Positions 1,128-51,221 of a stretch of DNA of 64,000 bases are shown here, in pieces. The translations under genes were made by a program, and so were the position numbers. Each line of letters starts with the position of its first letter. The stretch's first letter is position 1. The stretch comes from Verrucomicrobiia bacterium (GTDB taxonomy: Bacteria; Verrucomicrobiota; Verrucomicrobiia; Verrucomicrobiales; Akkermansiaceae). The notes below the pieces were generated by a model, which was given only the letters and a program-made list of their open reading frames with translations, had not been told where the DNA came from and searched no databases. The DNA lies in contig JAUIGV010000009.1 of NCBI GenBank assembly GCA_030432565.1, positions 62,001 through 126,000 of the forward strand. The letters are read 5' to 3'.

Positions 1128-4100
1128 TCAATTACCGGAAATGGCTCTCACCCGGTAGAAACGATATCGCCCGTCTCGCTGGCTTTGGTCAACGAGAGTC
1201 GACGTTTCCGAGTTTGCGAGGATTATCCCACCGACGATGAACCATCCAGCCAACGGGTCGGACAAGGCTTCGAGTTGGTAGCTTTGGCCGGGCTGGCTGG
1301 TGAAGGTAATGGTGGGTTCGGTTTCGAGATTGGTCAGGCTGGTGATTTCCGGTGCAGTGTTGGCAATGATGCCATCAAAGCCAATGACTCGCAGACGCAT
1401 GAAGCGTGTGCGGGTTTGGTCCGCTGTAGTGAGGTCAATGGCACGGAAGGTTTCCGTGAGATCCGTTGAGGAGAGGGCTTCGATATGAATGGCAGAAGGT
1501 CCGCTCCGCCATGTTTTGAGATCGTTTGACACTTCGGCAATGACGGCGAATCTCCGGGTATCAAGTTTTTGGTTCGTCCAGGTCAGGCTCAAGGTTTTGG
1601 TCTCGGGATCGAAGACCGGGACGGGGAAGAGGTCGGAGTCCTGTATGGTAGGGTCCATCCCGAGAGCAAACTCGAAGAAGTTGGAAATCCCGTCGTCGTC
1701 GGGATCATTCTCTTTGTCGGTTTGGCCTGGAGTGGCAATGCCAAAGGTTCGACTCACCCAGGCAGGATAGGAGTCGTGAACAGTCACTTCAACTTCCTGC
1801 GATTGATCAAAGTCAAATGCGGTGGCATTCAAGCGTAGATGATAGGTTCCTGGCAGGTCGAAGGAAATCTCGGTCGACGCTTCTCCGGGGGTGGTGAAAG
1901 ATACCGGAGCTGGACCGTCGAGCAGCTCCCATTGGAAGGTCACGGAAGCGGGGCTGATGGAGCCATATGAGACGAAGGGATCGATGGTAAGACTGTCCGG
2001 CAGAGTGATCGTTTCGCTGGGCGGAGTGCTCACGAAGAAGGTTCCTGAGTTTCCCGGAGTTCCATTGATGGTAAGCCCCGGTGCCCAATTGGGTTTCAGA
2101 TTCCATCCTTCGACGGGAAGCGAAGTGTCGCTAAATTCGAGCGAGAATCCGGTGCCGTCGGACGCGGGATACCAGTCATCGTATTCGAAGTCATGAATCC
2201 CTGCGTTGATGCTCGTGATTTCAAGGCGGATCCGTTCTCCGCCGTTGTCGAGCTTGCCATCATACTGGCCGGCAACAGGGAGATTGTCGCCATAGCGGTT
2301 TTCAAAGGCAGCTTGGTTACTCACCAGGACCACGAATTCGCCAGGCTGAAGGGTAAGATTGGGAAAGGTGAAACGAATTCCCTCGGTGAAGCGAACCCCA
2401 TTGAGATTGATTGCTTCCTGGCCGATATTTTGAAGTTCGATAAATTCGAAATCAGAGCCGCCAAGCGGGTCATACATGATCTCACTGATCCGGAGACTTT
2501 GGATGAGCAGGCGCTCGTTGGCGAGCGGAGTGTTGTTGGTGTAGCCCGGGGTTGGGACGACAAATTCCTCATAGGTGGAGCTGCCATCCGGGACCCGGCC
2601 GCGGGAGAGATCAGAGCGTTGGTTCACAAAGTGGACCTGGTCGATCATGACTCCGTTTGTTCCGAGGAGTGAGATCCATTCGTTCTCGGAGGCGAGCTTG
2701 AATGGAAGTTCATCCGCTCTAGAGGAATCAGCCGAATTCCCCTTGGGGGTCAGGAGCGTAAAGCCTTGCGGGGCGATGAAGCTGAGTTCGGGCAGGATAT
2801 GCTTTTGAGGAAAACTGACAGGTTCGTCGCTCATGGCGAGTCCACCGAGTGCAACCGGCTGGCCCGATGGATTGAACAGTTCGATAAATTCGTCTTCGAA
2901 GACCGACGCGTCTTGGGAGAGCCATTCGTTGACTCGAATTCCACCGGGGTCTCCAAGCCTGATCGATTGATTGGGTGCACCTAGCGATGGGAGCGAGAGC
3001 TGCCAGATTCCATCAATGCGGGAGATCGAATGATCCGGGATCTGGAGGCCGAATGCCACGGTGTCGATGACAGCATTGCCATTGGCGGCCGTGTCAAAGA
3101 GCGAAAGCGATTCTCCGTCCGCATTGAGGTTAAAACCGGCGAAGAGTTCCTGTGCTCCGGTCGTAAGGTCGCCATAGATCAAAAGGAATCCGTTTGGAGG
3201 AACCACGGTATTTGCCGGGAAGATGAAGCGGGTGGGATCCGAGGGGTCATCGGAAAGGGACATTCCTCCGAGATAAGCAGGAAGTGCACTCGCATTATGA
3301 ATCTCGATGACATCGGGGAAGCTACCATCCACATTTCGGATGCTGTTGTTCACGGCAAGAATCTCGCTCAGGTAGAGTGATCCGTGAGGGGAAGCGAGAG
3401 TGCCGTTGCTGGTTGCGAGTGGAAGTGAATCGGGAGGTCCGATCACCGGAGTAATTTCACGTTCGATGTAGATGCGGCGCGCATCCATGAACGTCCGCAT
3501 TTGTTCGATCTGGGATTGGGGGACCCAGTCAGTGAGGTTGTTGTCGAGCAGTTCATCAAATTCCTCTTTTGAAAAGGTGGTCTGAAGAAGCTCGCGAAGA
3601 GCTTCGAAGTAACGCTCGACGATGAGGGGGTGGGTGAAAAGCGGGATCAAGGGATCGAGCACATCACTATCGTCGATCATATCAAATAGGGTGTGTTCCG
3701 GATTCTCGTTTCGGCTCCCATCTCCAATGCTTAGAATGGTATCGAGATCGTGGGGCAGGAAGACAAAGCGGGGATCTTTGGCTCCGCTATACATGGAGAA
3801 ATCATCATCAGCGCCGTTGCTGATGTTGGTTTCGCCGTTGGCGAGAATGGCCATCGCTGCGAACCATTTCATCCATTGGTCGAGGTTGGCAACCTCCTCC
3901 ATTTGATTGATGTAGTCGTCATCTTCGGAGGTGTTGTTAATGACTCTCAACATTTCATCGAGATCACTCCAATCGTTTACGCTGCTATTGGTTTGCTTAC
4001 TCCAGCCGTCGGATTCGTAATCGTTGATGTCACCATCACGCCAGCGGAATTCCCGGTCGGGCCTAACTTTTTTGTAAAGGTTTCCGCCATCGTCGGTCTC

Positions 4101-7100
4101 GAATTTGTCGTCAATGAATTCGCCGGAGAGAGGCTGGACGTGAACCATCGATCCGTAGTCGAAACCATCTCCACGGGCGATGTTTCCGCCGTTGATTCTG
4201 ACCTGGACCCGGTAGGTGTCGGGTGCTTGCATGCCCGAAGCTTCAAAGAGTTTCATGCCCAGAAACTGGAGGTAGGTAAACTTGGTGTTCAGATTCATCC
4301 TCGTCATGTCATTCCAGTCATTGTCCCGGGCGAGGGAGATTCTCATGGGGACGGGTGTGTGGTTTCGGCTGCCGGCACCCCGCACCCTCATCCCTGCGGA
4401 GTAGCGAATGTCCGGTCCCGAGCCATCATCGAGGATGACGGTTGTATTCATCTGGGCATTGCTTTGCCTGCGGATACCCCGCCACTGGTTTAATTCGGAA
4501 ACCGGCATGATGACGCGATAGAAGGCGTGATCGAAGGTGTTGGCTTCGTCGTCAACCTGAAGCAAGGCATTGGCGGTTTGTCCGTTGTCGGCGGGAGCGG
4601 GCCAGGTCCGGGTATGTGTTCCGTCGGTTGATTCGACATAGAATTCGATGACCGTACCATTTGGTTGGGGAGGAAGCATGGCTCCATAGATGCCGTCACC
4701 CGGTTCATCGTCGCAGTTCGCGCCGTCGTCGAGCATCGGTGTGGTTTGAAACGGGCCCGGGTTCTGGGCGGAAACCCGGTAATGGAGAATCCCACCAATT
4801 GTCTCGCCGGCTTCATCCCTGAGTTCGGCGACGATGCCGATGGGGTCGGATGACGTGGGGACGGCAGGTCGATGTTCGAGGTCCAGAATCAACGGGGCCG
4901 TGTTGTCGACTGCCGAAGAATTAACGACACCGGGAGTGGGGAGATTGGCAGTGCTGAATCCCCAGTTCTGCCCCTGCTTGTTACTGAGATTAGGGTTGAT
5001 GAGTTCGAGGGAACTTCCCCGGCCGTCGGCGGGAGAAATCCAGTCCCAGCCAGGTTCGTTTCCAACAGTGACTCTTGCTCGGCGAGCCCAATCACCCTGG
5101 TCGTAATAGCGAACTTCATCGACCTCTTCTCCGTCGTCATCGATGAGACGGATGCGCTCCCCACTGTTGCTGAGCTTTCCGGTCCAGTTTCCCAAGACAT
5201 TTGGAACAACTCCATAGGTGGCTTCAAAGGTCGTGGTGTCTGCGCTGATGACGAGAAAATCACCGGGCGCGATGGTGACATCAGGAAAAGTGAAGCTGAC
5301 ACCACTATCCAATTGCCAGCCGTTGATGGAAATTGGCAGGGAACCAATGTTGGCAAGTTCGATGAATTCCTCCAAATCATTGCCCGAAGTGGGATTGAAC
5401 ATGATTTCATTAATGACGATGTTTTTGGCGGAGGGGCTAACCTCAATCTCAACTTCGACTTCCGCCGAGTCCATGGTTCCATCGTTGGCGATGTAGGAAA
5501 AAGAATCAGTTCCAACAAAATCGGCAGTCGGTTGATAGGTGAAGGAACCATTTGGAGAGAGGTTCAAAGTTCCATTGATCACGTTTCTAGAAAGAGTTGC
5601 GGATAGGGCCTGGCCTTCGATGTCAAAGTCGTTGGCGAGAACGCCCTCGTTTTCGTTGATGACCAGTTCTTCGCCAATCTGCGTTTCATATTGATCATCC
5701 TGCGTCTGGGGGGGGTCATCGACAGCTACGATGGTGATATTGACGGTGGCGAGATTGGACTCCTGAAGCGAATCGCCTGCGCGATAGGTGAAAGAGTCGG
5801 AGCCACTGAAATTGGTATTGGGAATATAGATGAATCCACCATCGACCCCAAGAGTGAGGGTGCCATTTGCGGGCCCTGAAACAAGAATCGCGGTTAGCGG
5901 ATCAACATCCAAATCATTGGCGAGGATACCTTCATTACCCAGGCGGATCATGGGAGAGTCCTCGATAATTTGGTAAGAATTATCAACAGCAATGGGCGGG
6001 GCATTCACGACGATGGAGACGTCAACCGGGTTTGATTCAAGGAGGTTATCACTGGCCTGATAGGTGAAGGTGTCTGTTCCCGAGAATCCAAAATTCGGTG
6101 AGTAGGTGAGCGAGCCGTCTTGAGCGAGATTCAGGGTCCCCGAAGAAGTGGAAGAAACGATGATTGCTCTAAGAGTGGCGTTATCGGGATCGGAGTCGTT
6201 GTTCAGGACTCCGTTTGACACAGCAACAGTGAGAGAAACCCCGGGAGCAGTTAGATAACTTTCGGGGCGAGCAACAGGCGGATCATTTCTTGAGGCCACA
6301 TTGAGGGTGACAGTCTCCGGGCGACTGCTATCGATTCCATCGCTGGCCCGGTAGGTGAAAGAATCAGTTCCGAAGAAATTGAGTGAAGGGGTATAGGTGA
6401 AACTTCCGTTACCGGCGAGGGTAACCGTGCCATGCGAGGGCAGTCCTTCGAGGATGGCGCTTAGGTTGCTCCCTTCGGGGTCGGAATCGTTTCGTAAAAC
6501 GCCAAGGGCACTGGCGATGATGAGCGGGGTGTCTTCGATCGCGGAGTAGGAATCGCTGCTGGTCTCCGGGAAATCGTTGAGCCCGCTTAACATGTTAAGC
6601 GTGACAGTGGCAGCAGGTGAAAAGAATTCCCCGTCGGTGACGCGATAGGTAAAACGATCCGATCCCTCGTAGTTGACTGCCGGAATGTAAAGAAAGGTTC
6701 CGTCGGGATTGAAATCGAGTGAGCCATTTTGAGGTCCTGAGAGTAGCTCGGCGACAAGGCGATCGTTTTCGGGGTCCGTATCATTGGCGGTAATACCGGC
6801 GGCAAGGGCGCGTTTTCCAACAAGGTAGGCATTCATGCTGATGTCACTGCTGCCCGGATCGTCCTGGTGAACCTCGACTGCCAGCACGTTGTTGCCTTCC
6901 GCTAGCAAGTTCGCGGGAACTTCGACCTCATTCCAGATTCCCTCGGCAGTCCGGCCGGGGTTCAACAGGGCCGGTGCCTCGGCCGGTGCTTCCGGGTCGA
7001 GGTTGTCGAGTACCACACGTGTTCCGTTCAGGTAAATTGCGCAACCATCGTCACGGACATAGCCTATGACCAGTTTGTCGAAATCAGCCGCTTCCGTGAC

Positions 7101-9725
7101 GGTGAAAGTATGACGGAAGTAGGTGGTGATGTGCTTGTTGTTCGAGTTGTCGCCGAAGGACACCGTGGTCGCTTCGTCGCCGTCACCGTAGCCAAGCTCC
7201 GCTGGTCCGCTAGCCCAGCTCACGTCGTTGAACGCCGGATTTCGCCAGGAGGTTCCCAGGTCTTCGCCGGTGTCGAGGTAGGCCCAGCTTGCGCCTGCGG
7301 CCACCAGGATTTCATCGGGGGCGGACGTCACGGTGACTTTTAGGTTGTCGAGTGCCCACGATTCATCCGATCCAGCTTCCCAACCGTCACCGGTGACAAA
7401 CCAGCTGATGGTCGCGCTGGATGAAGTGTGCGGGATGTTGCGTAGTGACGGGACTCGTCCCATGTCATAACCGGCCTCCGGATAGGATTGTGCCCCATTG
7501 AAGCCTACTTCCTCATCTCTGAAGATCAAGGAGCCGGCGGGATATCCGAATGATCCTCCGTTTCCAACATTCCTAAAGGTTTCGCCGAAAACTTCGACTC
7601 CATCGACGGTGATGGTGAACCGTTCGTCTCCATCCCACGAATCGATGACCGCGAGAAGAAAGTCCAGCCCAAGTGATGAGTGTGGCGGCAGATTCTGAAG
7701 GGTGAGAGTTGTCGCTTCTGATGGATTGCCACCCGCCTGATTGCGGAGGAATTGATTTGAAAAGGTATTGCCATCGTTGCCGCGACCTTCAAACCCTTGC
7801 ACCGATTCCAGCATGCCGGGTCCGGTGATCAGCGGAGATGGGGTCAGTGAGTCAAAGTCACTTTGGAAGACGATTTGATCACCTCCCCGGGTAGTGATGA
7901 TTTCAATCGGGATGTTTTCCAGAGTGTTGTAAGTGTCATCAAAAGCGACCGGAGGATCATTGATCGGAGTGATTTCAAGAACGACAAGAACAGGTTCGGA
8001 CACCGCGTTGTCATCACTGGCCCGGTAGGTGAAGGAATCGGTTCCGAAAAATCCAGGATCGGGATTGTAGACGAATGATCCATCAGAGCCGAGGCTGAGA
8101 GTGCCCTGACTGACATCATTGACCAGCACGGCGGAGAGTTGATCGTTTTCGATGTCGGTGTCATTCCCAAGCAAGCCAGGGGCAAATTGAACAAGTGTTG
8201 AGTTTTCGACACCGGAATAGTTGTCGGGAAGCGCAACCGGGAGATCATTTACCGGATTCACGGTTAAGGTGACAGTCGCGACAGGAGAGTCGCCGCCGGG
8301 ATCTCGGGCAAAATAGGTGAAGCTATCAATCCCATTGAAATTTAGAGCCGGTTGGTAAATGAAAGAGCCATCGGGATTCAGGCTCAAAACTCCATTTTGT
8401 GGGGCAGTTTGAAGGATTGCTTCGGGTTCGTCTCCGGTGTCGTTGATTAGGACGCCTCCTCCGCTCTCCGGGATGGAAATCTCAACGTCATCGAACCAAG
8501 CACTGGTAAGTTCGTCTGCCGCTGTCGATTTACTCGAAAATGCTCCGAGGACGATAGTGTGATCCCCGGCGTCCAAAGAAATATCAAAGCTCGCATTCTG
8601 CCATCCCGAATCATCCAATCCATTTCCGCCATTGCCATCGCCGCGAAAGCGGGCGAGGGAGTTTTCAATGTCATTTCCGTAGCGGATGCCATCGACTTCA
8701 AAGAGGGCCTCACCATATTCATCTGCCTCATAACCGTCGGAAAAGGTGAGACGGTAGCGAAATGAAATTGTAGTGACGGCAGGATTTTCCAGGGTGAAGG
8801 TGCGCTGCCAGCCACCGGAAGTCGACTGATTGTTGTTGAGTCTGCGGCCTACTTGGACTGAAAGTGCTCCGCCGGTAAATCCACCGGTCGGATCGAGTTC
8901 GCCGTCGGCATTGTTTGGGCGGGATGTGTTGTTGAAGGTATCGTCCGCGTAGGTGAATCCAGCCAATGGCGAATTGGAGGTGGGTGTCAGGTTTACAGAA
9001 AGACCGACATCAGTGCTGGTGAGGGTAGTTTGGTGAACTTCGACCGCGATGGTATTGATTCCCTCCTGAATGATTCCCGAGAGATTTAAAGTCGCGCTTC
9101 CGAAGTTGGTTTCATCTGCATTTTGGCTGAGTGTATTGGTGGTGACTGCCCCGGCAGGCATGGTGTCGGTGCGGAAGACTTCGGTTCCGTTGAGGTAGAT
9201 AATTCCGCCATCATCAATCAGGTGACCGAGGACCCATGAGCCTTCGACCGCTTCAGCGGCGCTTAGTGAAAACTGTTGGCGAAAGAGGTAGGTGGTGATC
9301 AGGTTTTCTCCATTTCCCGCGGCCGCGAGGCCACCCAGGACAGCGGGAGTCCCGGGAGGAAAACCATCAATGGTGCCTCCTTGGAACGGCGCGTTTCCGG
9401 CCGACCAAGGTCCGCTTGTTGAAGTTGCCGTGTCATACTGGGGGGAGTTCCACGAGAGTCCGTTACCATCAAGGGGATAGGTTTGGTTGGAGCCATTTTC
9501 GTTTTCAATGCGATCAAGGTATTGCCACGTTGGCGAAAGAACCGAGCTCCCGCCTCCAAAATTTGCAGAGAGAATTGAACCTCCGCTTGAGATGATCAGG
9601 ATGCGGTCTTCATCGACCTCAAAGGTGTCGTTATTCGCGACCGGGACGGCGGAGAGCGTCGTGGCGAGAGCGATAAAAAAGCAGGAGGTTTTCCTGAAAA
9701 GTGAACAGTGCTTGTTTGCAGGCAT
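1128..9725 (-). CDS. Giant secreted protein: cadherin-like repeats, lamin-tail domains, CotH domain
   Basis: A protein of 2865 residues with a signal peptide (about 1-28, ending SAVPVAN). From about 31 to 1428 there are seven cadherin/bacterial-Ig-like repeats, recognisable by 'GVLxND', 'DGSFxYxP' and 'GTDSFTYRASD'. Repeats 1 and 3 carry insertions at about 48-425 and 610-972. A lamin-tail domain follows at about 1432-1560 ('INEIMFNP', 'EEFIELAN'). A CotH domain lies at about 1740-2100 ('HDLDTIL'). Three more lamin-tail domains start near 2118, 2260 and 2405, then an Ig/PKD-like domain near 2550. The C-terminal segment has 'DPDDDGISNFFEFALGMDP' and ends in YRVRAISGN; no PEP-CTERM tail is seen. 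CotH domains are kinase-like in spore-coat proteins; the function here is unknown, and surface attachment is inferred. The GH16 gene ends 32 bp upstream, so the two may be co-transcribed. Confidence 0.85.
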   Translation of the reverse strand: MPANKHCSLFRKTSCFFIALATTLSAVPVANNDTFEVDEDRILIISSGGSILSANFGGGSSVLSPTWQYLDRIENENGSNQTYPLDGNGLSWNSPQYDTATSTSGPWSAGNAPFQGGTIDGFPPGTPAVLGGLAAAGNGENLITTYLFRQQFSLSAAEAVEGSWVLGHLIDDGGIIYLNGTEVFRTDTMPAGAVTTNTLSQNADETNFGSATLNLSGIIQEGINTIAVEVHQTTLTSTDVGLSVNLTPTSNSPLAGFTYADDTFNNTSRPNNADGELDPTGGFTGGALSVQVGRRLNNNQSTSGGWQRTFTLENPAVTTISFRYRLTFSDGYEADEYGEALFEVDGIRYGNDIENSLARFRGDGNGGNGLDDSGWQNASFDISLDAGDHTIVLGAFSSKSTAADELTSAWFDDVEISIPESGGGVLINDTGDEPEAILQTAPQNGVLSLNPDGSFIYQPALNFNGIDSFTYFARDPGGDSPVATVTLTVNPVNDLPVALPDNYSGVENSTLVQFAPGLLGNDTDIENDQLSAVLVNDVSQGTLSLGSDGSFVYNPDPGFFGTDSFTYRASDDNAVSEPVLVVLEITPINDPPVAFDDTYNTLENIPIEIITTRGGDQIVFQSDFDSLTPSPLITGPGMLESVQGFEGRGNDGNTFSNQFLRNQAGGNPSEATTLTLQNLPPHSSLGLDFLLAVIDSWDGDERFTITVDGVEVFGETFRNVGNGGSFGYPAGSLIFRDEEVGFNGAQSYPEAGYDMGRVPSLRNIPHTSSSATISWFVTGDGWEAGSDESWALDNLKVTVTSAPDEILVAAGASWAYLDTGEDLGTSWRNPAFNDVSWASGPAELGYGDGDEATTVSFGDNSNNKHITTYFRHTFTVTEAADFDKLVIGYVRDDGCAIYLNGTRVVLDNLDPEAPAEAPALLNPGRTAEGIWNEVEVPANLLAEGNNVLAVEVHQDDPGSSDISMNAYLVGKRALAAGITANDTDPENDRLVAELLSGPQNGSLDFNPDGTFLYIPAVNYEGSDRFTYRVTDGEFFSPAATVTLNMLSGLNDFPETSSDSYSAIEDTPLIIASALGVLRNDSDPEGSNLSAILEGLPSHGTVTLAGNGSFTYTPSLNFFGTDSFTYRASDGIDSSRPETVTLNVASRNDPPVARPESYLTAPGVSLTVAVSNGVLNNDSDPDNATLRAIIVSSTSSGTLNLAQDGSLTYSPNFGFSGTDTFTYQASDNLLESNPVDVSIVVNAPPIAVDNSYQIIEDSPMIRLGNEGILANDLDVDPLTAILVSGPANGTLTLGVDGGFIYIPNTNFSGSDSFTYRAGDSLQESNLATVNITIVAVDDPPQTQDDQYETQIGEELVINENEGVLANDFDIEGQALSATLSRNVINGTLNLSPNGSFTYQPTADFVGTDSFSYIANDGTMDSAEVEVEIEVSPSAKNIVINEIMFNPTSGNDLEEFIELANIGSLPISINGWQLDSGVSFTFPDVTIAPGDFLVISADTTTFEATYGVVPNVLGNWTGKLSNSGERIRLIDDDGEEVDEVRYYDQGDWARRARVTVGNEPGWDWISPADGRGSSLELINPNLSNKQGQNWGFSTANLPTPGVVNSSAVDNTAPLILDLEHRPAVPTSSDPIGIVAELRDEAGETIGGILHYRVSAQNPGPFQTTPMLDDGANCDDEPGDGIYGAMLPPQPNGTVIEFYVESTDGTHTRTWPAPADNGQTANALLQVDDEANTFDHAFYRVIMPVSELNQWRGIRRQSNAQMNTTVILDDGSGPDIRYSAGMRVRGAGSRNHTPVPMRISLARDNDWNDMTRMNLNTKFTYLQFLGMKLFEASGMQAPDTYRVQVRINGGNIARGDGFDYGSMVHVQPLSGEFIDDKFETDDGGNLYKKVRPDREFRWRDGDINDYESDGWSKQTNSSVNDWSDLDEMLRVINNTSEDDDYINQMEEVANLDQWMKWFAAMAILANGETNISNGADDDFSMYSGAKDPRFVFLPHDLDTILSIGDGSRNENPEHTLFDMIDDSDVLDPLIPLFTHPLIVERYFEALRELLQTTFSKEEFDELLDNNLTDWVPQSQIEQMRTFMDARRIYIEREITPVIGPPDSLPLATSNGTLASPHGSLYLSEILAVNNSIRNVDGSFPDVIEIHNASALPAYLGGMSLSDDPSDPTRFIFPANTVVPPNGFLLIYGDLTTGAQELFAGFNLNADGESLSLFDTAANGNAVIDTVAFGLQIPDHSISRIDGIWQLSLPSLGAPNQSIRLGDPGGIRVNEWLSQDASVFEDEFIELFNPSGQPVALGGLAMSDEPVSFPQKHILPELSFIAPQGFTLLTPKGNSADSSRADELPFKLASENEWISLLGTNGVMIDQVHFVNQRSDLSRGRVPDGSSTYEEFVVPTPGYTNNTPLANERLLIQSLRISEIMYDPLGGSDFEFIELQNIGQEAINLNGVRFTEGIRFTFPNLTLQPGEFVVLVSNQAAFENRYGDNLPVAGQYDGKLDNGGERIRLEITSINAGIHDFEYDDWYPASDGTGFSLEFSDTSLPVEGWNLKPNWAPGLTINGTPGNSGTFFVSTPPSETITLPDSLTIDPFVSYGSISPASVTFQWELLDGPAPVSFTTPGEASTEISFDLPGTYHLRLNATAFDFDQSQEVEVTVHDSYPAWVSRTFGIATPGQTDKENDPDDDGISNFFEFALGMDPTIQDSDLFPVPVFDPETKTLSLTWTNQKLDTRRFAVIAEVSNDLKTWRSGPSAIHIEALSSTDLTETFRAIDLTTADQTRTRFMRLRVIGFDGIIANTAPEITSLTNLETEPTITFTSQPGQSYQLEALSDPLAGWFIVGGIILANSETSTLVDQSQRDGRYRFYRVRAISGN

Positions 9726-12276: not shown

Positions 12277-13752
12277 CTAGTTCTTTTGTCCCGTTCCGGG
12301 GAGGAAGCGGTAGTAGGACTCAAGCATCAAGGTTGCGAGACAAGTCCGATAGTGCTCGGCGAAGCCTCCGCCACTCAGGCCGTGACCGGCTTGAACCGAC
12401 TTGTAGGAACCATCCTTGTTTTGGTTGTTGAGGACTTCGTCGCGGAAGAGTTCGTTATACTTTTTCCACTCTTCACCGCCGTGGTTGATCATGACCTGTG
12501 CTGCGTAGTAGTGGCCATAAAGATCCGAGTCCTCCTTGGATTTCCAGTCGAACTTCATGTTCTTGTCCATGAACTTGACGGCCTTGCGAGCCTGGCGGTT
12601 TGCGGAGGATTCCCAGATCTGGAAGGAAAGGGCGCCAACGGCTGCAAGTGTGGTGCCGTCGTGGCGGATGGTCTGGCTGCTGTAGCCAAAGGCACCACTT
12701 GGAGCTTGCTTGGTTTCCATGTAGTCGAGGGCTTTTTTGACGCAGCGACGAAGGTTTGCAAAGTCGAGGCCGGTGAACTTGCAGGCTTTGAGGGCCTGAA
12801 GCTGCCATCCCACGATGGAGGTATCGGTGTGTCCGCCTTCTTCGACGTAAGAGTAGGCCCAGGCGCCATTGGAGGCCTGGCTGTTGATGAGGAATTGACC
12901 GGAGGCCATGACGGCGTCTTCAAGCTGGGTGATGTTTTCTCCGAAAGATTTTACGCAGAGTGTGTAGGCTTCGGCGAGAGCGTAAACGGCGATGGCATGC
13001 TCGTAGCACCAGCTTTTCGCTTTGAAGTCGTTGGCAAGCTTGCCATTATTCTTCATGGCTTTGTCGACGAGGAAGGTGATGGCGGCGAGAACGGTATCAC
13101 CAAATTCCTCCGAGCCTGCCGTTTCGCAGTGGCCAAGGTAGGCGAGGAGGGCAAGTCCGGTCATGGCGACGGGCTGGCTACCCGTCCAAGAGCCGTCTTT
13201 GTTTTGTTTTTCTTTCAGCCAGCGGAGTGAAGCGACGACGGCGTCTTCACACTTTTCGGTGCCGCCGTTGGAAGTGAGTCGCTGCAGGCGGTCGGCCTTG
13301 GAACAACGCTTTTTCATGGCCGTGGGGATATTTCCGAAACCGCCACCGGCGCCGGAACCATCTCCATCTCCCCAGCCGTCACCGAAATCATTTCCGTCAC
13401 CGAAGTCGGTGCTGGGATCGGGAACGTCGATTTCCGGGACAGGAACAGCGGTAGGGGAAGAGGTGTTGGCCGCAATGACCTTGGACATGGAGGCGGAAGG
13501 GGCGGAAGGCTTGCGCTCGATTTGAGTCTGCACCTTCTTCTGTTTAAGATTTTCCTCGGATTCGGGAGTCCCGTTGTAACTGACCAACTGCGGGATGTTC
13601 TTGGTCGGAAGATTCATCGCGATGATCCAGAGGATCAGTCCCACGAGGACCATCAGTAAAAGAGCGATAATCAGGCTGGTGATGGTCGACATCCGCTGCT
13701 GGGACGCGAGTCGGGCTTGGGCTTCCGGTGAGAGTTGGGCGTGTAGGCTCAT
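12277..13752 (-). CDS. Toroid paralog 1: membrane-anchored prenyltransferase/squalene-oxidase repeat protein
   Basis: 491 residues. A short cytoplasmic head (MSLHAQLSPEAQARL) is followed by one membrane helix (about 24-46). A Pro/Ser-rich stretch and a Gly/Asp-rich linker (about 115-140) lead to an alpha/alpha-toroid domain (about 150-491). Toroid repeats contain 'NKDGSW', 'MTGLALLAYLGHCET', 'YEHAIAVYALAEAY', 'SIVGWQLQALKA', 'DSDLYGHYYA' and a C-terminal 'HYRTCLATLMLESYYRFLP'. Type II topology puts the toroid in the periplasm. The DxDD motif of squalene-hopene cyclase is absent, so cyclase activity is unlikely; binding or scaffolding is more plausible but unproven. Residues 1 to about 181 are identical to those of paralog 2. 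It is the last gene of a four-gene minus-strand array. Confidence 0.8.
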   Translation of the reverse strand: MSLHAQLSPEAQARLASQQRMSTITSLIIALLLMVLVGLILWIIAMNLPTKNIPQLVSYNGTPESEENLKQKKVQTQIERKPSAPSASMSKVIAANTSSPTAVPVPEIDVPDPSTDFGDGNDFGDGWGDGDGSGAGGGFGNIPTAMKKRCSKADRLQRLTSNGGTEKCEDAVVASLRWLKEKQNKDGSWTGSQPVAMTGLALLAYLGHCETAGSEEFGDTVLAAITFLVDKAMKNNGKLANDFKAKSWCYEHAIAVYALAEAYTLCVKSFGENITQLEDAVMASGQFLINSQASNGAWAYSYVEEGGHTDTSIVGWQLQALKACKFTGLDFANLRRCVKKALDYMETKQAPSGAFGYSSQTIRHDGTTLAAVGALSFQIWESSANRQARKAVKFMDKNMKFDWKSKEDSDLYGHYYAAQVMINHGGEEWKKYNELFRDEVLNNQNKDGSYKSVQAGHGLSGGGFAEHYRTCLATLMLESYYRFLPGTGQKN

Positions 13753-13935
13753 AGGTTTGTTTTTAGAGGGCAGGGTAGCAGTGGATTCTTCTTTTTTCGT
13801 GGAGTTCCGGATGTCCGTGTTCGATCAAGAGAGAGCGATTTGGTGGTAGAACGAACGGCCTGAGATTTCCTTAGGAAAAAGAAAATATCTTTCCGTGGGG
13901 CAAGTTAGCCCTAGATTTCAGAATACGACAAAGAA

Positions 13936-13966
13936 AAAAGCCGCACATCGCAAGATGTGCGGCTTT
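13936..13966 (-). terminator. Rho-independent terminator after toroid paralog 2
   Basis: A perfect 9-bp stem ccgcacatc/gatgtgcgg with a four-base loop (tttgc/gcaaa side). On the minus strand it is followed by a run of T. It starts about 25 bp beyond the stop codon at 13991, so paralogs 2 and 1 are probably separate transcripts. Confidence 0.87.
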
Positions 13967-13990
13967 GAGAAAGGGGGTGTCCGATCCGTG

Positions 13991-15496
13991 CTACTGCTTT
14001 TGTCCCGTGGCAGGAAGGAAGCGATAGTAGGACTCCAACATCAAGGTGGCGAGGCAGGTCCGGTAGTGGTTCGAAAAGGGGTTGGCCCCGGCAAAGCTCC
14101 CTGCCACAGCATTGATCTTCTGGCCGTTACCCACGTTCTTGTAGGAACCGTCCTTGTTTTGGTTGTCGAGAACCTGGTCGCGGAAGAGCTTGTTGTAGCG
14201 TTCCCATTCGGGGCCACCATTGTTGATCATGCACTGCACGGCGTAGTAGTGACCGTAGAGATCGGAATCGGCGGTATTCCAGTCGAACTTCATTTCCTTA
14301 TCCATGAAACGGACGGCTTTGCGCGCGACCTTGGTGGCGGATGACTTCCAGATCTGGAAGCAAAGGGCTCCAACCGCTGCCAGAGTGGTGCCGTCGCTTC
14401 CGCCGTGCAGGGCAGGACTGGAATATCCGATCGCGCCGCTCGGAAGCTGCATGCGCTCGACGTAATCGAGACCCTTTTTGTAGCAACGGGTGAGGTTGGC
14501 GAAGTCGAGTCCGGTGTATTTGCAAGCCTTGAGCGCCTGGAGGTGCCAGCCCACGATGGAAACGTCACCACCACGAGGGCTGTCCTCGCTGTAAGCGTAA
14601 TCCCATCCGCCGCCTTGATGCTGGCTGTTGATGAGGAACTGGCCGGACGCCATGATGGCGTCTTCAAGCTGGTTGATGTTTTCGCCGAATGATTTCACAC
14701 AGAGAGTGTAGGCTTCGGCGAGAGCATAAACAGCGATGGCGTGCTCGTAGCACCAGTGATTGTCTTTGAAGTCTGAACCAAGTTTACCATTGTTTTTCAT
14801 GGCCTTGTCGACAAGGAAGGTGATGGCGGCGAGGACGGTCTCGCCAAATTCCTCCGAACCTGCGGTTTCACAGTGGCCGAGGTAGGTCAGGAGGGCGAGT
14901 CCGGTCATCCCGATCTCCTTTTGACTGCACCAAGAGCCATCTTTGTTTTGTGTCTCTTTCAGCCAGCGGAGTGAAGCGACGACGGCGTCTTCACACTTTT
15001 CGGTGCCGCCGTTGGAAGTGAGTCGCTGCAGGCGGTCGGCCTTGGAACAACGCTTTTTCATGGCCGTGGGGATATTTCCGAAACCGCCACCGGCGCCGGA
15101 ACCATCTCCATCTCCCCAGCCGTCACCGAAATCATTTCCGTCACCGAAGTCGGTGCTGGGATCGGGAACGTCGATTTCCGGGACAGGAACAGCGGTAGGG
15201 GAAGAGGTGTTGGCCGCAATGACCTTGGACATGGAGGCGGAAGGGGCGGAAGGCTTGCGCTCGATTTGAGTCTGCACCTTCTTCTGTTTAAGATTTTCCT
15301 CGGATTCGGGAGTCCCGTTGTAACTGACCAACTGCGGGATGTTCTTGGTCGGAAGATTCATCGCGATGATCCAGAGGATCAGTCCCACGAGGACCATCAG
15401 TAAAAGAGCGATAATCAGGCTGGTGATGGTCGACATCCGCTGCTGGGACGCGAGTCGGGCCTGGGCTTCCGGCGAGAGTTGGGCGTGTAGGCTCAT
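13991..15496 (-). CDS. Toroid paralog 2: membrane-anchored prenyltransferase/squalene-oxidase repeat protein
   Basis: 501 residues with the same plan as paralog 1: cytoplasmic head, membrane helix at about 24-46, Gly/Asp-rich linker, periplasmic toroid from about 150. The first 181 residues or so are identical to paralog 1, and the DNA differs at only two positions noticed over about 540 bp. Beyond that the toroids diverge, with 'GGGWDYAYSEDSPRGGDVS' here where paralog 1 has 'NGAWAYSYVEEGGHTD'. Its toroid is closer to paralog 6 (44865-46367), which shares the SEDSPRGGDVSIVGWHLQALKA region. That mosaic pattern suggests gene conversion of the 5' half. It has its own terminator. Function unknown. 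Confidence 0.8.
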   Translation of the reverse strand: MSLHAQLSPEAQARLASQQRMSTITSLIIALLLMVLVGLILWIIAMNLPTKNIPQLVSYNGTPESEENLKQKKVQTQIERKPSAPSASMSKVIAANTSSPTAVPVPEIDVPDPSTDFGDGNDFGDGWGDGDGSGAGGGFGNIPTAMKKRCSKADRLQRLTSNGGTEKCEDAVVASLRWLKETQNKDGSWCSQKEIGMTGLALLTYLGHCETAGSEEFGETVLAAITFLVDKAMKNNGKLGSDFKDNHWCYEHAIAVYALAEAYTLCVKSFGENINQLEDAIMASGQFLINSQHQGGGWDYAYSEDSPRGGDVSIVGWHLQALKACKYTGLDFANLTRCYKKGLDYVERMQLPSGAIGYSSPALHGGSDGTTLAAVGALCFQIWKSSATKVARKAVRFMDKEMKFDWNTADSDLYGHYYAVQCMINNGGPEWERYNKLFRDQVLDNQNKDGSYKNVGNGQKINAVAGSFAGANPFSNHYRTCLATLMLESYYRFLPATGQKQ

Positions 15497-15662
15497 GATA
15501 GGTATGGAGGAAGGGCGTTTTTTTGGTTGGCGGGAATTTATCGGTCAAAACTGGGTTTGACCAGCGAAGAGATCCGCTGATTTTCATGAGTTTTAACGGA
15601 TGGCGTGGATGGGAAATTAGGGGAAATTGGAGGAAAGACGATTTTTTTATAAGGCCGGAGCT

Positions 15663-16844
15663 TCACGGGATTCCCCGGTAATAGGTTTGCAGGATCTGCG
15701 TCACCAGACAGGTCCGGTAGTGCTTCCCGTAGCCGTTTTCGACCGCATAAGAGGGGCTGATTGCGATGACTTCCTGGTATTTTCCATGATTTGGAACCAG
15801 AAAAGCCCCGTCGGTGCCTTGGTTTTTGAGAATTTGGGGGAAGACAATCTTTTGATAGCGATTCCAGTAATTGGGGCGGTGTCGAAACATCAGACGGGAG
15901 GCGAAATAGTGGCCATAGAGATCACAGTGCGGACTGTTCCATTCAAATTTCATCGTTTTGTCGATAAATCCGGCCGCTTTGCGAGAGTAGCGACGACCCG
16001 GTTTGAACATTTCGAAACAATATCCACCGACGGCGGTGAGAGTGCTGCCATCTTGCACTGGGCCGGTGGTGAGGCGGGTCCTGGGGCTGATATAGCCGAA
16101 TGATCCGCTGGGGTTCGTCTTTCCATCCAAATACCTGAGTGATCTCTGCCAGCAACTTTCCAGACCCACGAATTTGAGACCGGTTTTCTCACATGACTTA
16201 AGGGCGAGGACTTGCCAACCAGTCAGTGCCACCGTGCCACCGCGGACATTTTCCTGATCGTATCCATATTCCCAGCCGCCTCCCTTGTGCTGGTTCTTGA
16301 TAATGAGATCGCCACCGACCTCCACTGCCCGGCGCAGGTTGGGAATGACCTCCTCAAATCCCACTTCACAGAGCAGGTAGGCTTCCGATAGTGCGTAGAT
16401 CGCGATGGCGTGTTCGTAAGGCCAGCGTTTATCCAGGTAGTCGTCGGCAATTTTTCCCCGGTTTTCGACTGCTTTGCCGATGAGAAATTGAATCGCGTTG
16501 AGAACGTGGACGCCGAATTCTTCCGAGCCGGCAGTTTCGCCGTTTCCGAGAAAACAGAGCAAGGCGAACGCGGTTGGCGCGACCTTGCGCTGATCAGTCC
16601 AGCTGCCGTCTTTGTTTTGCGTGTTCTTGAGGAAGCGAAGAGCATCGACAACCGCTTGCTCGCTTGCTTCATCTCCGCCGTTTTTTTTGATGGCTGCAAG
16701 GCGTCGTTCCCTGGTGCAGCGCTGGAGCAGGGAAGGGGGGACGTTTTCCAGATGCTCTTTAACCGGAGGGGGCGCTTTTGGCGGTGGGTCCTGCCCCTGG
16801 CAATGGAGGCAGGAGGTGAGTAGGATAAGGATCACGATTTTCAT
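15663..16844 (-). CDS. Toroid paralog 3: secreted prenyltransferase/squalene-oxidase repeat protein
   Basis: 393 residues from the ATG at 16844, chosen because the N-terminus then reads MKIVILILLTSCLHCQG, a signal peptide. 'LTSC' could be a lipobox, so it may be a lipoprotein. A Pro-rich stretch (PPPKAPPP) leads into the toroid: 'NKDGSWTDQ', 'FALLCFLGNGET', 'WPYEHAIAIYALSEAYLLC', 'LTGWQVLALKSC', 'CDLYGHYFAS', 'HYRTCLVTQILQTYYR'. It lacks the membrane anchor and Gly/Asp linker of paralogs 1, 2 and 6. It is 166 bp upstream of paralog 2. The repeat 'SGSFGYISPRTRLTTGPVQDGS' is longer than in its relatives. Function unknown. Confidence 0.78.
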   Translation of the reverse strand: MKIVILILLTSCLHCQGQDPPPKAPPPVKEHLENVPPSLLQRCTRERRLAAIKKNGGDEASEQAVVDALRFLKNTQNKDGSWTDQRKVAPTAFALLCFLGNGETAGSEEFGVHVLNAIQFLIGKAVENRGKIADDYLDKRWPYEHAIAIYALSEAYLLCEVGFEEVIPNLRRAVEVGGDLIIKNQHKGGGWEYGYDQENVRGGTVALTGWQVLALKSCEKTGLKFVGLESCWQRSLRYLDGKTNPSGSFGYISPRTRLTTGPVQDGSTLTAVGGYCFEMFKPGRRYSRKAAGFIDKTMKFEWNSPHCDLYGHYFASRLMFRHRPNYWNRYQKIVFPQILKNQGTDGAFLVPNHGKYQEVIAISPSYAVENGYGKHYRTCLVTQILQTYYRGIP

Positions 16845-17324
16845 GGTGTTCTCGCAAAATACCACCCCCCCGTTTGACTAGCGAGGATAGACCATCTGCC
16901 AAAAGTCCTTACGTGAAACGGGGATTGTGGTGTCGAGAGGATCAGCCGCTGCGCGGGAGTGCTGACAGACTTCCGGCCCGTGGGAGCCGATTGCGGCGTT
17001 GCTCGTCAGATGCGTATGTTCATACGCACCTTCCTCGCGCCTTGCCCTCAATACCCACAGTCTCGGCCTTTTCCCGCAAACACTTCTGGCAAATGGTATA
17101 AGTCCAAGAGGTCGTCTGAAAATTGCCGAATGCATGCTGCGGAGGATTTTCATCTCAAGCAGGTCGCGGCAAGGGGACTGGTCGAGACCAGTGATTCAGG
17201 AGAAACGCAGCTCGGGTTGAAAGGCCTCGCATTCCGACAGGGTTTCTTTTCCAAGCAAGCAGCGCAGCCGCAATTCTTCATCACCTCAAATCTGAAACAC
17301 TCGTTGGGCATTTTCAGACGGCCT
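16845..17324. other. Gap between toroid paralogs 3 and 4, filled by two repeats
   Basis: 480 bp without a credible gene. It is taken up almost entirely by MITE-like elements B and A. Only about 45 bp next to the paralog 3 start is unique, so any private promoter of paralog 3 would lie in or beside element B. Confidence 0.6.
16891..17097. repeat. MITE-like element B
   Basis: About 207 bp bounded by inverted repeats ACCATCTGCCAAAAGT (16891-16906) and ACTTCTGGCAAATGGT (17082-17097). Fourteen of 16 positions match when one is complemented, and weaker pairing continues inward for about 13 bp. An internal perfect palindrome 'tgcgtatg-tt-catacgca' may form a cruciform or hairpin. No coding capacity is evident. 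Short TA-containing flanks (tag / ata) could be remains of a target duplication. Only one copy is seen in the window. Confidence 0.5.
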
Positions 17325-17325
17325 C
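17108..17325 (-). repeat. MITE-like element A, copy 2 (intact ends)
   Basis: 218 bp with nearly perfect 20-bp terminal inverted repeats: gaggtcgtctgaaaattgcc at 17108-17127 and the complement of gaggccgtctgaaaatgccc at 17306-17325. The whole length aligns with the opposite strand of 891-1107. Its right end shares the last base of the TAG stop codon of toroid paralog 4. Ten bases separate it from element B. It may also work as a long hairpin at the 3' end of paralog 4. Confidence 0.7.
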
Positions 17326-18440
17326 TAAAGTCGCACGCGGTGCCGGTAGTAGGTCTGCAGGATCAGCGTTGCAAGGCAGCTCCGGTAGTGGGTGTCTTCG
17401 GGTGAGTCAGAGGCATATGACGCGAAGATTCCCCGGACAGCCTTCGGGTTTCCTTGATTGACTGGCTGAAAGGAGCCGTCTTTTGACTGGTGTTTGAGAA
17501 TTGAGGGAATAATCAGCTTCTGGAAGCTGGCCCACGATTCTTCATCGTGGTGAAACAAGGCCTGTGCCGCGAAGAAGTTGCCGTATAGATCAGAGTCAGC
17601 GGTGTCCCAATCGAACTTCAGACTTTTCACAAGCTTTGGGATTAACTTTTCGGAAGCGTCCGGCTCCGAATGCGAAAACTGAAGCGCGTGCGCTGCGGCG
17701 GCTGTTTTCGAAAAGGCCAATCGAGGAGTCGATTCCAGTGTCTTCACCAGAAAGGCCTGAGCCCGCCGCTTTGCGCGGTCAAGGTTTCTGAATTTAAACC
17801 CGGTCAGCTCCAGGGATCGGAGGGCAAGCAAATGCCAGCTTGTGAGCGAAATATCGCGGTGCCCGGGTGTGCTTGCCTGGTAGGCGTGATTCCATCCTCC
17901 ATTTTCGCCCTGACTGTTGATGAGGAATTGACCGCAGAGTTCAAGTGCCGGCTCCAAGGAGGGAATGTTTTCCTGATTGAGTTCGCAGCAAAGCAGGTAG
18001 GCTTCGGTCATTGCGTATGTTGCGATGGCATGTTCGTAAGGCCAGCGACTGTCTTTAAAGTCGGATGCGAGCTTACCCCGGTACTTTTCGGCTGTGTCAG
18101 TCAGGTGGATAATAGCAGCCAGAATGGTCTCTCCGAATTCGTCGTCGGCTGCGGTTCTCCCTTGTCCAAGAAACGTGAGAAGTCCCAAGCCGGTCATGCC
18201 AACTCTCTGTCGGGACCACGAGCCGTCGGGTTCCTGGGTGTTCTTGAGATAGCGGAGGGACTTCAGAACGGTCTCTTCGGAAGCGGCTTCGCCACCTGCA
18301 GTCTCGATCGCCTTGAGTCGGTCTTTCTCAAAAGGTCTGTTTTGAAAAAGGAGCGCGGCAGGATGTTGGGCTTCGAGCTCCCACTTTATCTGAGCAGGCA
18401 GAGAGAGCGACAAACCAAACAGGATGACTGGGATTTTCAT
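17325..18440 (-). CDS. Toroid paralog 4: secreted, most divergent prenyltransferase/squalene-oxidase repeat protein
   Basis: 371 residues from the ATG at 18440, which gives a signal peptide MKIPVILFGLSLSLPAQ; the frame extends upstream but without a better N-terminus. Toroid motifs are kept: 'GSWSRQRVGMTGLGLLTFLG', 'WPYEHAIATYAMTEAYLLC', 'LTSWHLLALRS', 'DSDLYGNFFAAQAL', 'HYRSCLATLILQTYYR'. The repeat that in the other paralogs reads 'SGAxGYSS...GTTLAAVGA' is shortened to a segment around 'STPRLAFSKTAAAAHALQF', so one toroid hairpin is altered. The final HRVRL ends at a stop codon touching MITE-like element A. It is the first gene of the four-gene array. Function unknown. Confidence 0.76.
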   Translation of the reverse strand: MKIPVILFGLSLSLPAQIKWELEAQHPAALLFQNRPFEKDRLKAIETAGGEAASEETVLKSLRYLKNTQEPDGSWSRQRVGMTGLGLLTFLGQGRTAADDEFGETILAAIIHLTDTAEKYRGKLASDFKDSRWPYEHAIATYAMTEAYLLCCELNQENIPSLEPALELCGQFLINSQGENGGWNHAYQASTPGHRDISLTSWHLLALRSLELTGFKFRNLDRAKRRAQAFLVKTLESTPRLAFSKTAAAAHALQFSHSEPDASEKLIPKLVKSLKFDWDTADSDLYGNFFAAQALFHHDEESWASFQKLIIPSILKHQSKDGSFQPVNQGNPKAVRGIFASYASDSPEDTHYRSCLATLILQTYYRHRVRL

Positions 18441-44864: not shown

Positions 44865-46367
44865 CTAATTCCCTCCCTTGCCGGTAGGCAAAAACCGGTA
44901 GTAGGACTCCAGCATCAGGGTGGCGAGGCAGGTCCGGTAGTGGCGACCGTGGCCGCCGTCGCCAGCGAAGGAGGCTCCGACGGCATTGAGCTGGTTCCCG
45001 CCTCCGACGATTTTAAAGGAACCGTCCTTGTCCTGATTGGTCAGCACTTCATCGCGGAACACTTTGTTGTAGCGTTCCCACTCTTTGCCGCCGTTGTTAA
45101 TCATACACTGGACGGCGTAGTAGTGTCCGTAGAGATCAGCATCAGCGGTGTTCCAGCCAAACTTGATCTCCTGGTCCATGAACTTGACGGCCTTGCGGGC
45201 AACGCGGGTGGAGGGGGATTTCCAAATCTGGAAGCACAAGCCACCCACCGCTGCCAGTGTGGTTCCGTCCCCATGGATTCCGTTCGGGCTGGAGTAGCCA
45301 ATGGCTCCGCTGGAGGCCTGCATGCGTTCGATGTAGTCGAGGCCTTTCTTGTAACAACGGGTCATGTTGGCGAAATCGAGTCCGGTGAATTTACATGCTT
45401 TAAGTGCCTGGAGGTGCCAACCGACGATTGAAACATCGCCGCCGCGTGGGCTGTCCTCGCTGTAGCCGTAATCCCAACCGCCGCCTTTGTGCTGGCTGTT
45501 GATAAGAAATTGGCCTGAAGCCATGACGGCTTCCTCAAGTTGTAAAATGTTCTCGCCAAATCCGCGCACACAGAGGGTGTAGGCTTCAGCGAGGGCGTAT
45601 GTTGCAATGGCGTGTTCGTAGCACCAGTGATCGTCTTTAAAATCGGTGGCAAGTTTCCCGTTGTTCTTCATCGAGATGTCAACGAGGTAGGTGATGGCAG
45701 AGAGGACAGCCTCACCGAATTCCTCGGAGCCCGCAGTTTCGCAATGCCCAAGAAAGGTCAGAAGGGCAAGGCCGGTCATGCCAACTTGTTTTTGATTGGT
45801 CCATGAACCGTTCTTATTCTGGGTCCTCTTAAGCCAGCGGAGAGCATTCACAACGGCGTCTTCGCATTCCTTGCTGCCTCCGTTGTTGAGAAGTCGATCC
45901 ATGCGGTCGGCCAAAGAGCAGCGCTTTCGACTTTCGATGGGGATTCCAGGAATTCCGGTCCCGCTTTTGCCCTGGCCGGAATCAAATCCGCCTGCACCAA
46001 AACCATTGCCATCATCGATCCCAAAGTCGCTTTCAGTTGGGGGAACCTCGGGGACTTTAATCGCAATCGGTGAGGTGGTATTGACCGCAATTGCTGCCGT
46101 GGGCATGGATGAGGGAGACGCTGGTTTATTGAGCATGGCATTATTGACCTTCTTGATTCTGGGGTCCGGGTCGGGTTTGGAGGTCGCCGAGGAGTACGTG
46201 GCTTGCGGGATATTTTTAACACTGGTGGAGAGGGCGATAATCATTAGAATCACCCCGATCAGGGTCATCGCGAGAAGGGCGATGATGACGCTGGTGATGG
46301 TTGAATTACGTCGTTGGGCCGCGATGCGGGCCTGGGCTTCGGGCGAGAGTTGGGCATGGAGGCTCAT
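44865..46367 (-). CDS. Toroid paralog 6: membrane-anchored prenyltransferase/squalene-oxidase repeat protein
   Basis: 500 residues from the ATG at 46367, matching the MSLHAQLSPEAQAR start of paralogs 1 and 2; the frame is open far upstream but is not protein-like there. A membrane helix at about 24-46 is followed by a Pro/Ser and Gly/Asp-rich linker ('GIDDGNGFGAGGFDSGQGKS'), then the toroid: 'NKNGSWTNQKQVGMTGLALL', 'WCYEHAIATYALAEAYTLC', 'GGGWDYGYSEDSPRGGDVS', 'DADLYGHYYAVQCM', 'HYRTCLATLMLESYYRFLP'. Its toroid is closest to paralog 2. It is divergent from recF and first in a two-gene unit with paralog 5. Function unknown. Confidence 0.8.
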   Translation of the reverse strand: MSLHAQLSPEAQARIAAQRRNSTITSVIIALLAMTLIGVILMIIALSTSVKNIPQATYSSATSKPDPDPRIKKVNNAMLNKPASPSSMPTAAIAVNTTSPIAIKVPEVPPTESDFGIDDGNGFGAGGFDSGQGKSGTGIPGIPIESRKRCSLADRMDRLLNNGGSKECEDAVVNALRWLKRTQNKNGSWTNQKQVGMTGLALLTFLGHCETAGSEEFGEAVLSAITYLVDISMKNNGKLATDFKDDHWCYEHAIATYALAEAYTLCVRGFGENILQLEEAVMASGQFLINSQHKGGGWDYGYSEDSPRGGDVSIVGWHLQALKACKFTGLDFANMTRCYKKGLDYIERMQASSGAIGYSSPNGIHGDGTTLAAVGGLCFQIWKSPSTRVARKAVKFMDQEIKFGWNTADADLYGHYYAVQCMINNGGKEWERYNKVFRDEVLTNQDKDGSFKIVGGGNQLNAVGASFAGDGGHGRHYRTCLATLMLESYYRFLPTGKGGN

Positions 46368-50352: not shown

Positions 50353-51215
50353 CGACGGGAGATGCGCCTTTGGAAGAGCGCGATGATAGCAGGAAGGTAG
50401 TCGGTGGCGGTGTCGAGCGGCACGTAATCGATACCGGCACGTCGACACGTTGATGCGGCACTCTCAGCCGCGGCGGTGGTGCGGGCTTCCAATGCGCGGG
50501 CGTCTTTCTTGGTGAGGCGGGTCACTTGGCCGGTTTCAAGATCACTAATCGAGAGGGCTGGAATATCAGGGAGCGATCGCTCGATGGGATCGGAAATGTG
50601 GATTAGGATCACTTCGTGCTTACGGGCCAGGGCGCGCAAAGGTTTATCGAAGGCCGGCGTGATGAGGTCGCTGAGAATGAAGACGATGGACTTCTTAAGA
50701 GTCGTCTTGAGGAGGTGTTCGATCCCGCCTGCGAGATCGGTGCGGGGAGATTCCGGCTCAAAGGCGAGGAGTTCGCGAATCATGCGAAGGACGTGGCGGT
50801 GTCCGCGTCCGGGATCGAGTTGAAGTTCTTCCTGATCGGAGTAGAGGAGCAGCCCGACCTTGTCCTTGTTCAAGGTCGCCGAAAACGCCAGAACGGCGGC
50901 GACTTCAGCGGTGTATTCCGCTTTGGTGGTCACGCCGGAGCCGAATTGACCGGAAGCGGAGCGATCGACGAGAAAAAAGACGTTTTGTTCACGTTCTTCG
51001 GTGAAGAGTTTAATGAATGGGGAGCCGAGTCGGGCCGAGACGTTCCAGTCGATGGCGCGCATTTCATCACCTTCCTGATATTCGCGGATTTCGGCAAACT
51101 CAATGCCACGCCCTTTGAAAGAAGCATGCCAGGCACCTGCGGTCATGTTCTTCACGATACGTCGGCTCCGGATTTCAATCCGGCGCACCTTTTCCATTAA
51201 CTCTGAAGCCAGCAT
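50349..51215 (-). CDS. DUF58 / von Willebrand A-like protein
   Basis: 288 residues. 'RIEIRSRRIV' and 'FKGRGIEFAEIREYQEGDEMRAIDWNVSAR' are the DUF58 core (the latter is split by the GD-x-R-x-IDW signature). A vWA fold follows with the metal-site start 'FFLVDRSASGQFG' (DxSxS form). No membrane helix, so cytoplasmic. It sits 6 bp after moxR and overlaps the next gene by 4 bp, so the trio is one operon. DUF58 proteins accompany MoxR ATPases and may help chaperone or maturate envelope complexes. Confidence 0.88.
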   Translation of the reverse strand: MLASELMEKVRRIEIRSRRIVKNMTAGAWHASFKGRGIEFAEIREYQEGDEMRAIDWNVSARLGSPFIKLFTEEREQNVFFLVDRSASGQFGSGVTTKAEYTAEVAAVLAFSATLNKDKVGLLLYSDQEELQLDPGRGHRHVLRMIRELLAFEPESPRTDLAGGIEHLLKTTLKKSIVFILSDLITPAFDKPLRALARKHEVILIHISDPIERSLPDIPALSISDLETGQVTRLTKKDARALEARTTAAAESAASTCRRAGIDYVPLDTATDYLPAIIALFQRRISRR

Positions 51216-51221
51216 GGAATG

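Follow-up and report, generated by a model that had tools for sequence, protein, structure and literature searches.

TonB and TolA pull outer-membrane targets using inner-membrane energy. The vWA "force transducers" of the Planctomycetes–Verrucomicrobia–Chlamydiae (PVC) bacteria were described in 2025, and according to the main text of that paper they have a helix–linker–head plan and a TPR-tolQ-tolR-tolR synteny (PMC12204202). The present analysis concerns six genes, T1–T6, encoding proteins with an alpha/alpha-toroid domain and located in a 64,000 nt stretch, hereafter the window, of contig JAUIGV010000009.1 (assembly GCA_030432565.1, positions 62,001 to 126,000) of a Verrucomicrobiia bacterium of the family Akkermansiaceae. 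It is reasonably likely that three of these proteins, namely, T1, T2, and T6, are TonB/TolA-like periplasmic transducers of a branch with a toroid head.

The topology of T1, T2, T6, and their relatives, assessed from hydropathy, alignments, and the predicted head, was that of TonB and TolA (N-terminal helix, linker, and globular head), and the relatives with a histidine in the helix (His-type) shared with TonB and TolA this residue and, at part of their loci, ExbB/ExbD synteny. The differences consisted of the toroid head, the lack of a TonB_C match in T1–T4 and in the relative L086, and the absence of the helix His from the window proteins. The likeness to the vWA transducers, as far as these are set out in the main text of PMC12204202, included the membrane helix, linker, and globular head, the helix His of His-type members, the TPR, tolQ-like, and two tolR-like genes of the PVC operon, which most of the motor-linked relatives matched, and the occurrence of the same anchor fused to vWA in the bacterium's own genome; however, the head here is a predicted alpha/alpha toroid, and the window members lacked both the His and the motor linkage, with no TPR, tolQ-like, or two tolR-like neighbors beside the window's toroid genes. 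The word "toroid" does not occur in the main text of PMC12204202, and no paper on toroid heads associated with ExbB/ExbD was found in the literature covered, which was thin on subscription papers and preprints.

Toroid Fold and Absence of the Cyclase Motif

The toroid part of T1 was modelled using AlphaFold2 (AF2) with a predicted local distance difference test score (pLDDT) of 91.5 and a predicted template modelling score (pTM) of 0.91. Among the matches listed, its best solved match was squalene-hopene cyclase (2sqc_A; Z 26.6, root-mean-square deviation 2.9 A, 284 residues); class II terpene cyclases were matched as well, and other alpha/alpha-toroid enzymes came next (Z 22–24). For T4 as well, AF2 predicted a domain of this kind, composed entirely of helices (pLDDT 87.5). 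The T1-type head is thus predicted to be an alpha/alpha toroid. It should be noted that T1–T4 all remained under the curated cut-offs of Pfam and NCBIfam, and the relative L086 barely reached that of SQHop_cyclase_C (26.2 vs. 26.1 bits).

The DxDD[TAS] motif was found in none of the 139 toroid domains, any DxDD occurred in 1/139 and 1/50, and none was present in the six window toroids, which agrees with the absence stated for the four tandem genes in an earlier note made from the letters of this DNA. The candidate function of a terpene cyclase was rejected because the DxDD motif was missing. The periplasmic toroid family without a cyclase motif that the earlier note had proposed was supported, a periplasmic location being the most likely one. 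The likeness to squalene-hopene cyclase and class II terpene cyclases lies in the predicted fold of the T1 toroid, whereas the window toroids differ in having no DxDD, a single toroid domain, an anchored or secreted form, and scores under the Pfam/NCBIfam cut-offs in the case of T1–T4.

The fold is common to squalene-hopene and class II terpene cyclases, GH76 mannanases, and sugar epimerases, and the most conserved acidic residues in an alignment of 181 toroids (T1 numbering) were E261 (100%), D310 (99%), and E210 (97%). These features, together with the copies of this genus that have no motor link, would suit a periplasmic enzyme acting on polysaccharide or lipid, whose anchor merely holds it at the inner membrane and for which the nearness of ExbBD genes is incidental or regulatory. 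Such an enzyme is unlikely, however, given that the toroids lack the DxDD site seen in their nearest fold matches, that the order TPR-c4-ExbB-ExbD-ExbD-toroid recurs in both samples described below, and that the same anchor bears vWA and PA14 heads.

Linkage of Toroid Genes to ExbB/ExbD Motor Genes

The toroid-headed transducer reading was examined in two sets of relatives; the searches covered one phylum, and the named loci are from Verrucomicrobiota. Set 1 included 80 named loci, the best of 537 relatives, which were biased to the family of the query. The phylum sample consisted of 145 genomes distributed over the phylum, 59 of which matched; from 39 of these matching genomes, 40 loci were taken, in most cases the top match per genome, and 39 loci were counted, as locus L320 contained no toroid above the threshold. 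Open reading frames (ORFs) with fewer than 110 residues before the toroid (fewer than 100 in the phylum-sample mapping) or with weak helix hydropathy were dropped. In the linkage count of set 1, rows whose flank was shorter than 1.5 kb were kept separate (14 His and 11 non-His); these short flanks included L163, which duplicates L082 and was left out of the tree and of the His-column count.

In set 1, ExbD was found within 1.5 kb on the same strand at 26 of the 58 His-type anchored toroids with usable flanks vs. 0 of the 30 without His, these classes being defined by any His in the helix window, which mislabels the copies of another genus of the family (g13) and a few others. Since the rows are related, they do not represent independent events. 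In the phylum sample, ExbD was located within 1.5 kb at 22 of the 39 loci, mostly in the same gene order as in set 1. Chance adjacency was estimated by hand at about 1% or less, because the bacterium's own genome contains 12 ExbD matches in 5.9 Mb.

The usual order at the 26 linked loci was TPR (~1000 aa), c4 (~300 aa), ExbB, ExbD, ExbD, and toroid, with ExbB-like, TPR, and c4 genes at 23, 22, and 17 of them, respectively; in L083, L167, and L190, the TPR and c4 genes were found downstream instead. The identity of ExbB, both ExbD, and TPR at L086, and of ExbB at L201, was confirmed using Pfam. A further ExbB-ExbD pair was present directly after the toroid in L165, L166, L177, L185, and L201, so that two motor gene sets surround one toroid at some loci.

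The Shared Anchor Module

Over their first ~540 nt, which encode the short head, the single membrane helix, and the Gly/Asp-rich stalk, T1 and T2 differed by two bases near the start, and nt 61–540 were identical, whereas outside this tract the two genes had diverged (35% identity in the upstream DNA and 69–82% in the toroid part). The same tract was 77–96% alike in six relatives possessing both genes. Since the tract is near-identical while the upstream DNA and the toroid parts have diverged, the simplest reading is that the anchor was probably copied between T1 and T2 by recent gene conversion in the bacterium's own lineage.

The same anchor was fused to vWA domains in three proteins of the own genome (two on contig C54 and one on C25); the C25 protein passed the Pfam VWA cut-offs, and the one C54 protein tested fell below them. 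A third head type, PA14 (32.0 bits, cut-off 24), was fused to the anchor and stalk in L237 (834–2522, genome G001). Thus, head, helix, and stalk form a module carrying different heads. The vWA and PA14 domains are frequently binding domains. A stalk segment similar to that of T1 was also found at residues 257–314 of a 1510-aa YfbK-type vWA protein with TPR of the own genome (L019, 8760–13292). Toroid and vWA genes adjoined in L080, L084, L176, and L181, and all eight had the helix His.

Helix Histidine and Post-Helix Segment

The His counts refer to the alignment column on the helix that corresponds to Met34 of T1/T2, the other SHLS residues lying outside this test. His occupied this column in 71 of the 80 anchored toroids of set 1 outside the genus of the window bacterium (g1, hereafter this genus) and in 30 of the 40 phylum-sample rows outside g13. 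Among the ExbD-adjacent toroids, it was present in 44 of 48 (26/26 in set 1 and 18/22 in the phylum sample). The window proteins T1, T2, and T6 carried Met at this position, and nine rows of g13 were without His at the column. The rule that loss of the His means loss of motor linkage, clean in set 1 as given above, was rejected and is not claimed because of the linked genes without His in the second sample. As for the vWA anchors of this genus, the 23 read (20 of the more listed and 3 own) contained no His in the first part of the helix, mostly by eye, and two of them had a His at its far end; four vWA proteins located beside toroids in other families carried the helix His.

Directly after the helix, residues P54, V57, and Y59 (T1 numbering) were invariant in eight anchors of this genus, and in several members this segment was located, by eye, 20 residues from the His column. 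By its resemblance, the segment may correspond to the "motor box" of TonB/TolA described in the main text of PMC12204202. A transpore helix with Asp, such as that of the second vWA family in the same text, was rejected as a candidate, as no Asp was seen by eye in the T1/T2 helix.

Proposed Mechanism and Coupling in This Genus

In the proposed mechanism, the N-terminal helix would dock onto the ExbB/ExbD proton motor through the helix His and a short stretch directly following the helix, the Gly/Pro-rich stalk would pass the movement across the periplasm, and the alpha/alpha-toroid head, replacing the TonB C-terminal domain, would grip a partner, for which the TPR and c4 proteins encoded in the operon are candidates. 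The family has expanded in this genus and is located apart from the motor genes, and the docking His is replaced (Met34 in T1/T2). Here, T1, T2, and T6 could either be served in trans by the ExbB-ExbD-ExbD-TPR-c4 operon, using the post-helix segment that they have kept, or hold the toroid at the inner membrane as static tethers. The toroid-headed branch of the TonB/TolA/vWA type is probably motor-driven in much of the phylum and is expanded and possibly uncoupled in this genus, the coupling, the force, and the partner being inferred. It appears, on balance, plausible that this branch represents a second class of force transducers driven by ExbBD across the phylum, hitherto undescribed, in which the toroid would serve as a gripping head, the anchor is swapped among toroid, vWA, and PA14 heads, and one lineage lacks the helix His in both the toroid and vWA forms.

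A number of observations weigh against the transducer reading. No nearby ExbD was found at 32 of the 58 His-type toroids of set 1, and 17 of the 39 phylum-sample loci were unlinked to ExbD. In g13, 14 of 15 genomes contained the TPR gene, among them the six that gave no strong toroid match, and ExbD pairs were located near it in the four of those six that were checked; therefore, the g13 motor is not tied to toroids. The TonB_C domain, with four matches elsewhere in the own genome, was not matched by T1–T4 or L086. Four of the 22 ExbD-adjacent genes of the phylum sample had no His at the column (three Pro and one Gly), and in this genus the column was empty of His in all 32 rows as well as in the three window genes. 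In addition, none of the 23 anchored toroids of this genus with usable flanks (set 1) was near ExbD, and ExbD was absent from the window contig (C68).

The own genome contained nine ExbB matches besides the 12 of ExbD, none of them on the contigs with anchored toroids (C68 and C32). On contig C5, an ExbB-ExbD-ExbD-TPR-c4 operon without a toroid matched the toroid-bearing operons of L083 and L167. The same toroid-less gene order was found at eight of the nine loci of this genus mapped, including the own one, the ninth being interrupted by a contig end, and the TPR gene of this operon was present in 23 of the 24 genomes of this genus. Motor coupling of the window's own proteins is doubtful, since the His is also absent from some motor-linked relatives and since the motor operon exists in toroid-less form.

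It is quite possible that the anchored toroids of this genus are fully uncoupled from the motor and serve as static tethers or scaffolds, which overlaps with the second of the two options above. This would agree with the absence of the His from the toroid anchors and the vWA anchors read, with the lack of a nearby ExbD, and with a recurrent location beside recF-like and PduO-like genes instead; however, the post-helix P54, V57, and Y59 are retained, the motor operon is retained in this genus, and the His is also missing in some motor-linked relatives.

Conservation of the Tandem and Origin of the Secreted Copies

Several descriptive claims of the earlier note were borne out: T1–T4 are four paralogous ORFs lying head-to-tail on the minus strand, in two architectures, anchored (T1/T2) and with a signal peptide only (T3/T4, N-termini judged by eye). 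As for the signatures said to be shared, YEHAIA and HYRxCL were present in all four, whereas DLYGH was not, T4 having DLYGN. The note overlooked the second pair T5/T6, the near-identical anchor tract of T1/T2, a possible lipobox in T3, the anchor common to vWA heads, and the relatives beside ExbB/ExbD genes.

The note had also suggested testing whether the cluster is conserved. The T1-T2 pair recurred in relatives and was present in at least 7 of the 24 genomes of this genus, including the own one, but a conserved four-gene cluster was rejected, as only T1-T2 recurs. Tandem anchored toroids, two or three in a row, were also found in a second genus of the family. In g13, such arrays of two or three, without His at the usual helix column, were located in L282 (6676–11610) and L281 (7713–10888), the genomes being single-contig and of 2.7–3.2 Mb.

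In a quick tree, the long branches of T3, T4, and T5 were nested within the clade of anchored toroids of this genus, although the join of T3 and T4 may be false according to a warning of the tool. When conservation in at least 93% of the 181 toroids was required, 49 positions qualified; at these, T3, T4, and T5 showed 12, 12, and 10 departures, respectively, and T1, T2, and T6 none; the 175 other toroids had a median of 0 and a maximum of 11. Among the genus matches listed, which leave out weak matches and do not allow a judgment of rows at contig ends, the anchor-less copies of the close type were three in the own genome, a single one in G022, and a remnant in G003. Six relatives with T1-T2 had conserved flanking genes, and on the upstream side of T2 a SixA-like gene was located 306–334 nt from it, so there is no space for T3/T4. 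In the closest relative among the listed matches, the T4 copy contained four internal stops and T3 was missing at that locus. These sequence features suggest that T3–T5 are copies that shed the anchor and diverged; they appear to be of recent origin and unstable, and either altered or in decay.

The earlier note had explained the anchored and released toroids as one periplasmic system of several subunits. Anchored and secreted copies do occur together in both window clusters, but such a system is highly improbable and remains unsupported because T3–T5 are derived copies with departures at 10–12 of the 49 conserved positions, and relatives either lack them or have them in broken form, the six above having no room for T3/T4; close-type anchor-less copies are also few among the listed genus matches.

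Features of the Window

The coordinates of the toroid genes and of their parts are given in Table 1.

Table 1. Toroid genes of the window and parts of T1 and T2 (positions within the window).
Feature	Positions	Strand	Basis
T1, anchored toroid protein, 491 aa	12277..13752	minus	ORF; toroid part modelled by AF2
T2, anchored toroid protein, 501 aa	13991..15496	minus	ORF
T3, unanchored toroid with signal peptide, 393 aa, lipoprotein candidate	15663..16844	minus	signal peptide and lipobox by eye
T4, unanchored toroid with signal peptide, 371 aa, on the longest branch among window copies	17325..18440	minus	ORF, tree, AF2
T1, first 540 nt (head, helix, and stalk), DNA near-identical to T2	13213..13752	minus	
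T2, first 540 nt, tract matching that of T1	14957..15496	minus	
T1 membrane helix, ~residues 24–46	13615..13683	minus	limits by eye
T2 membrane helix, sequence as in T1	15359..15427	minus	limits by eye
T5, secreted toroid of second cluster, 384 aa	43653..44807	minus	
T6, anchored toroid of second cluster, 500 aa, adjoins recF-like gene	44865..46367	minus	

The tandem is transcribed in the order T4, T3, T2, T1. The N-termini of T3 and T4 were signal-peptide-like and without an anchor (by eye, no predictor), and T3 may be a lipoprotein, with LTSC seen close to its start. A search of the own genome with T1 returned 15 matches at E 0.01 or better, the weakest listed being 4.9e-16, and the paralogy of the toroid family in this genome is far beyond chance. 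The second cluster (T6 and T5) belongs to the same family as the tandem. Since a recF-like gene, an anchored toroid gene, and a PduO-like gene share one locus in the relatives L060, L063, L064, and L069, the two clusters of the window probably derive from one ancestral site. The names SixA, FabG, KBL, SecA, recF, and TIM were assigned from reading the sequence, and PduO-like from Pfam.

Near the second toroid cluster, a MoxR, a DUF58, and a weak DUF4381-like gene were located in a row (49375–52304, minus strand). The window also contained a repeat-rich protein of 2865 aa with a signal-like start (1128–9725) and an LTD/CotH protein of 1136 aa (60524–63934).

Conclusions

The analysis offers a lead on the role of a large, much-duplicated squalene-cyclase-like family. 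The loss of the docking histidine in one lineage would constitute a natural experiment. The toroid head bears on the question of which further heads such motors drive. If the toroid is kept in the TPR-ExbB-ExbD-ExbD operon over many families of one phylum, this would extend the recently proposed vWA class, and the set of toroid operons would be testable, with the partner of the toroid to be found.

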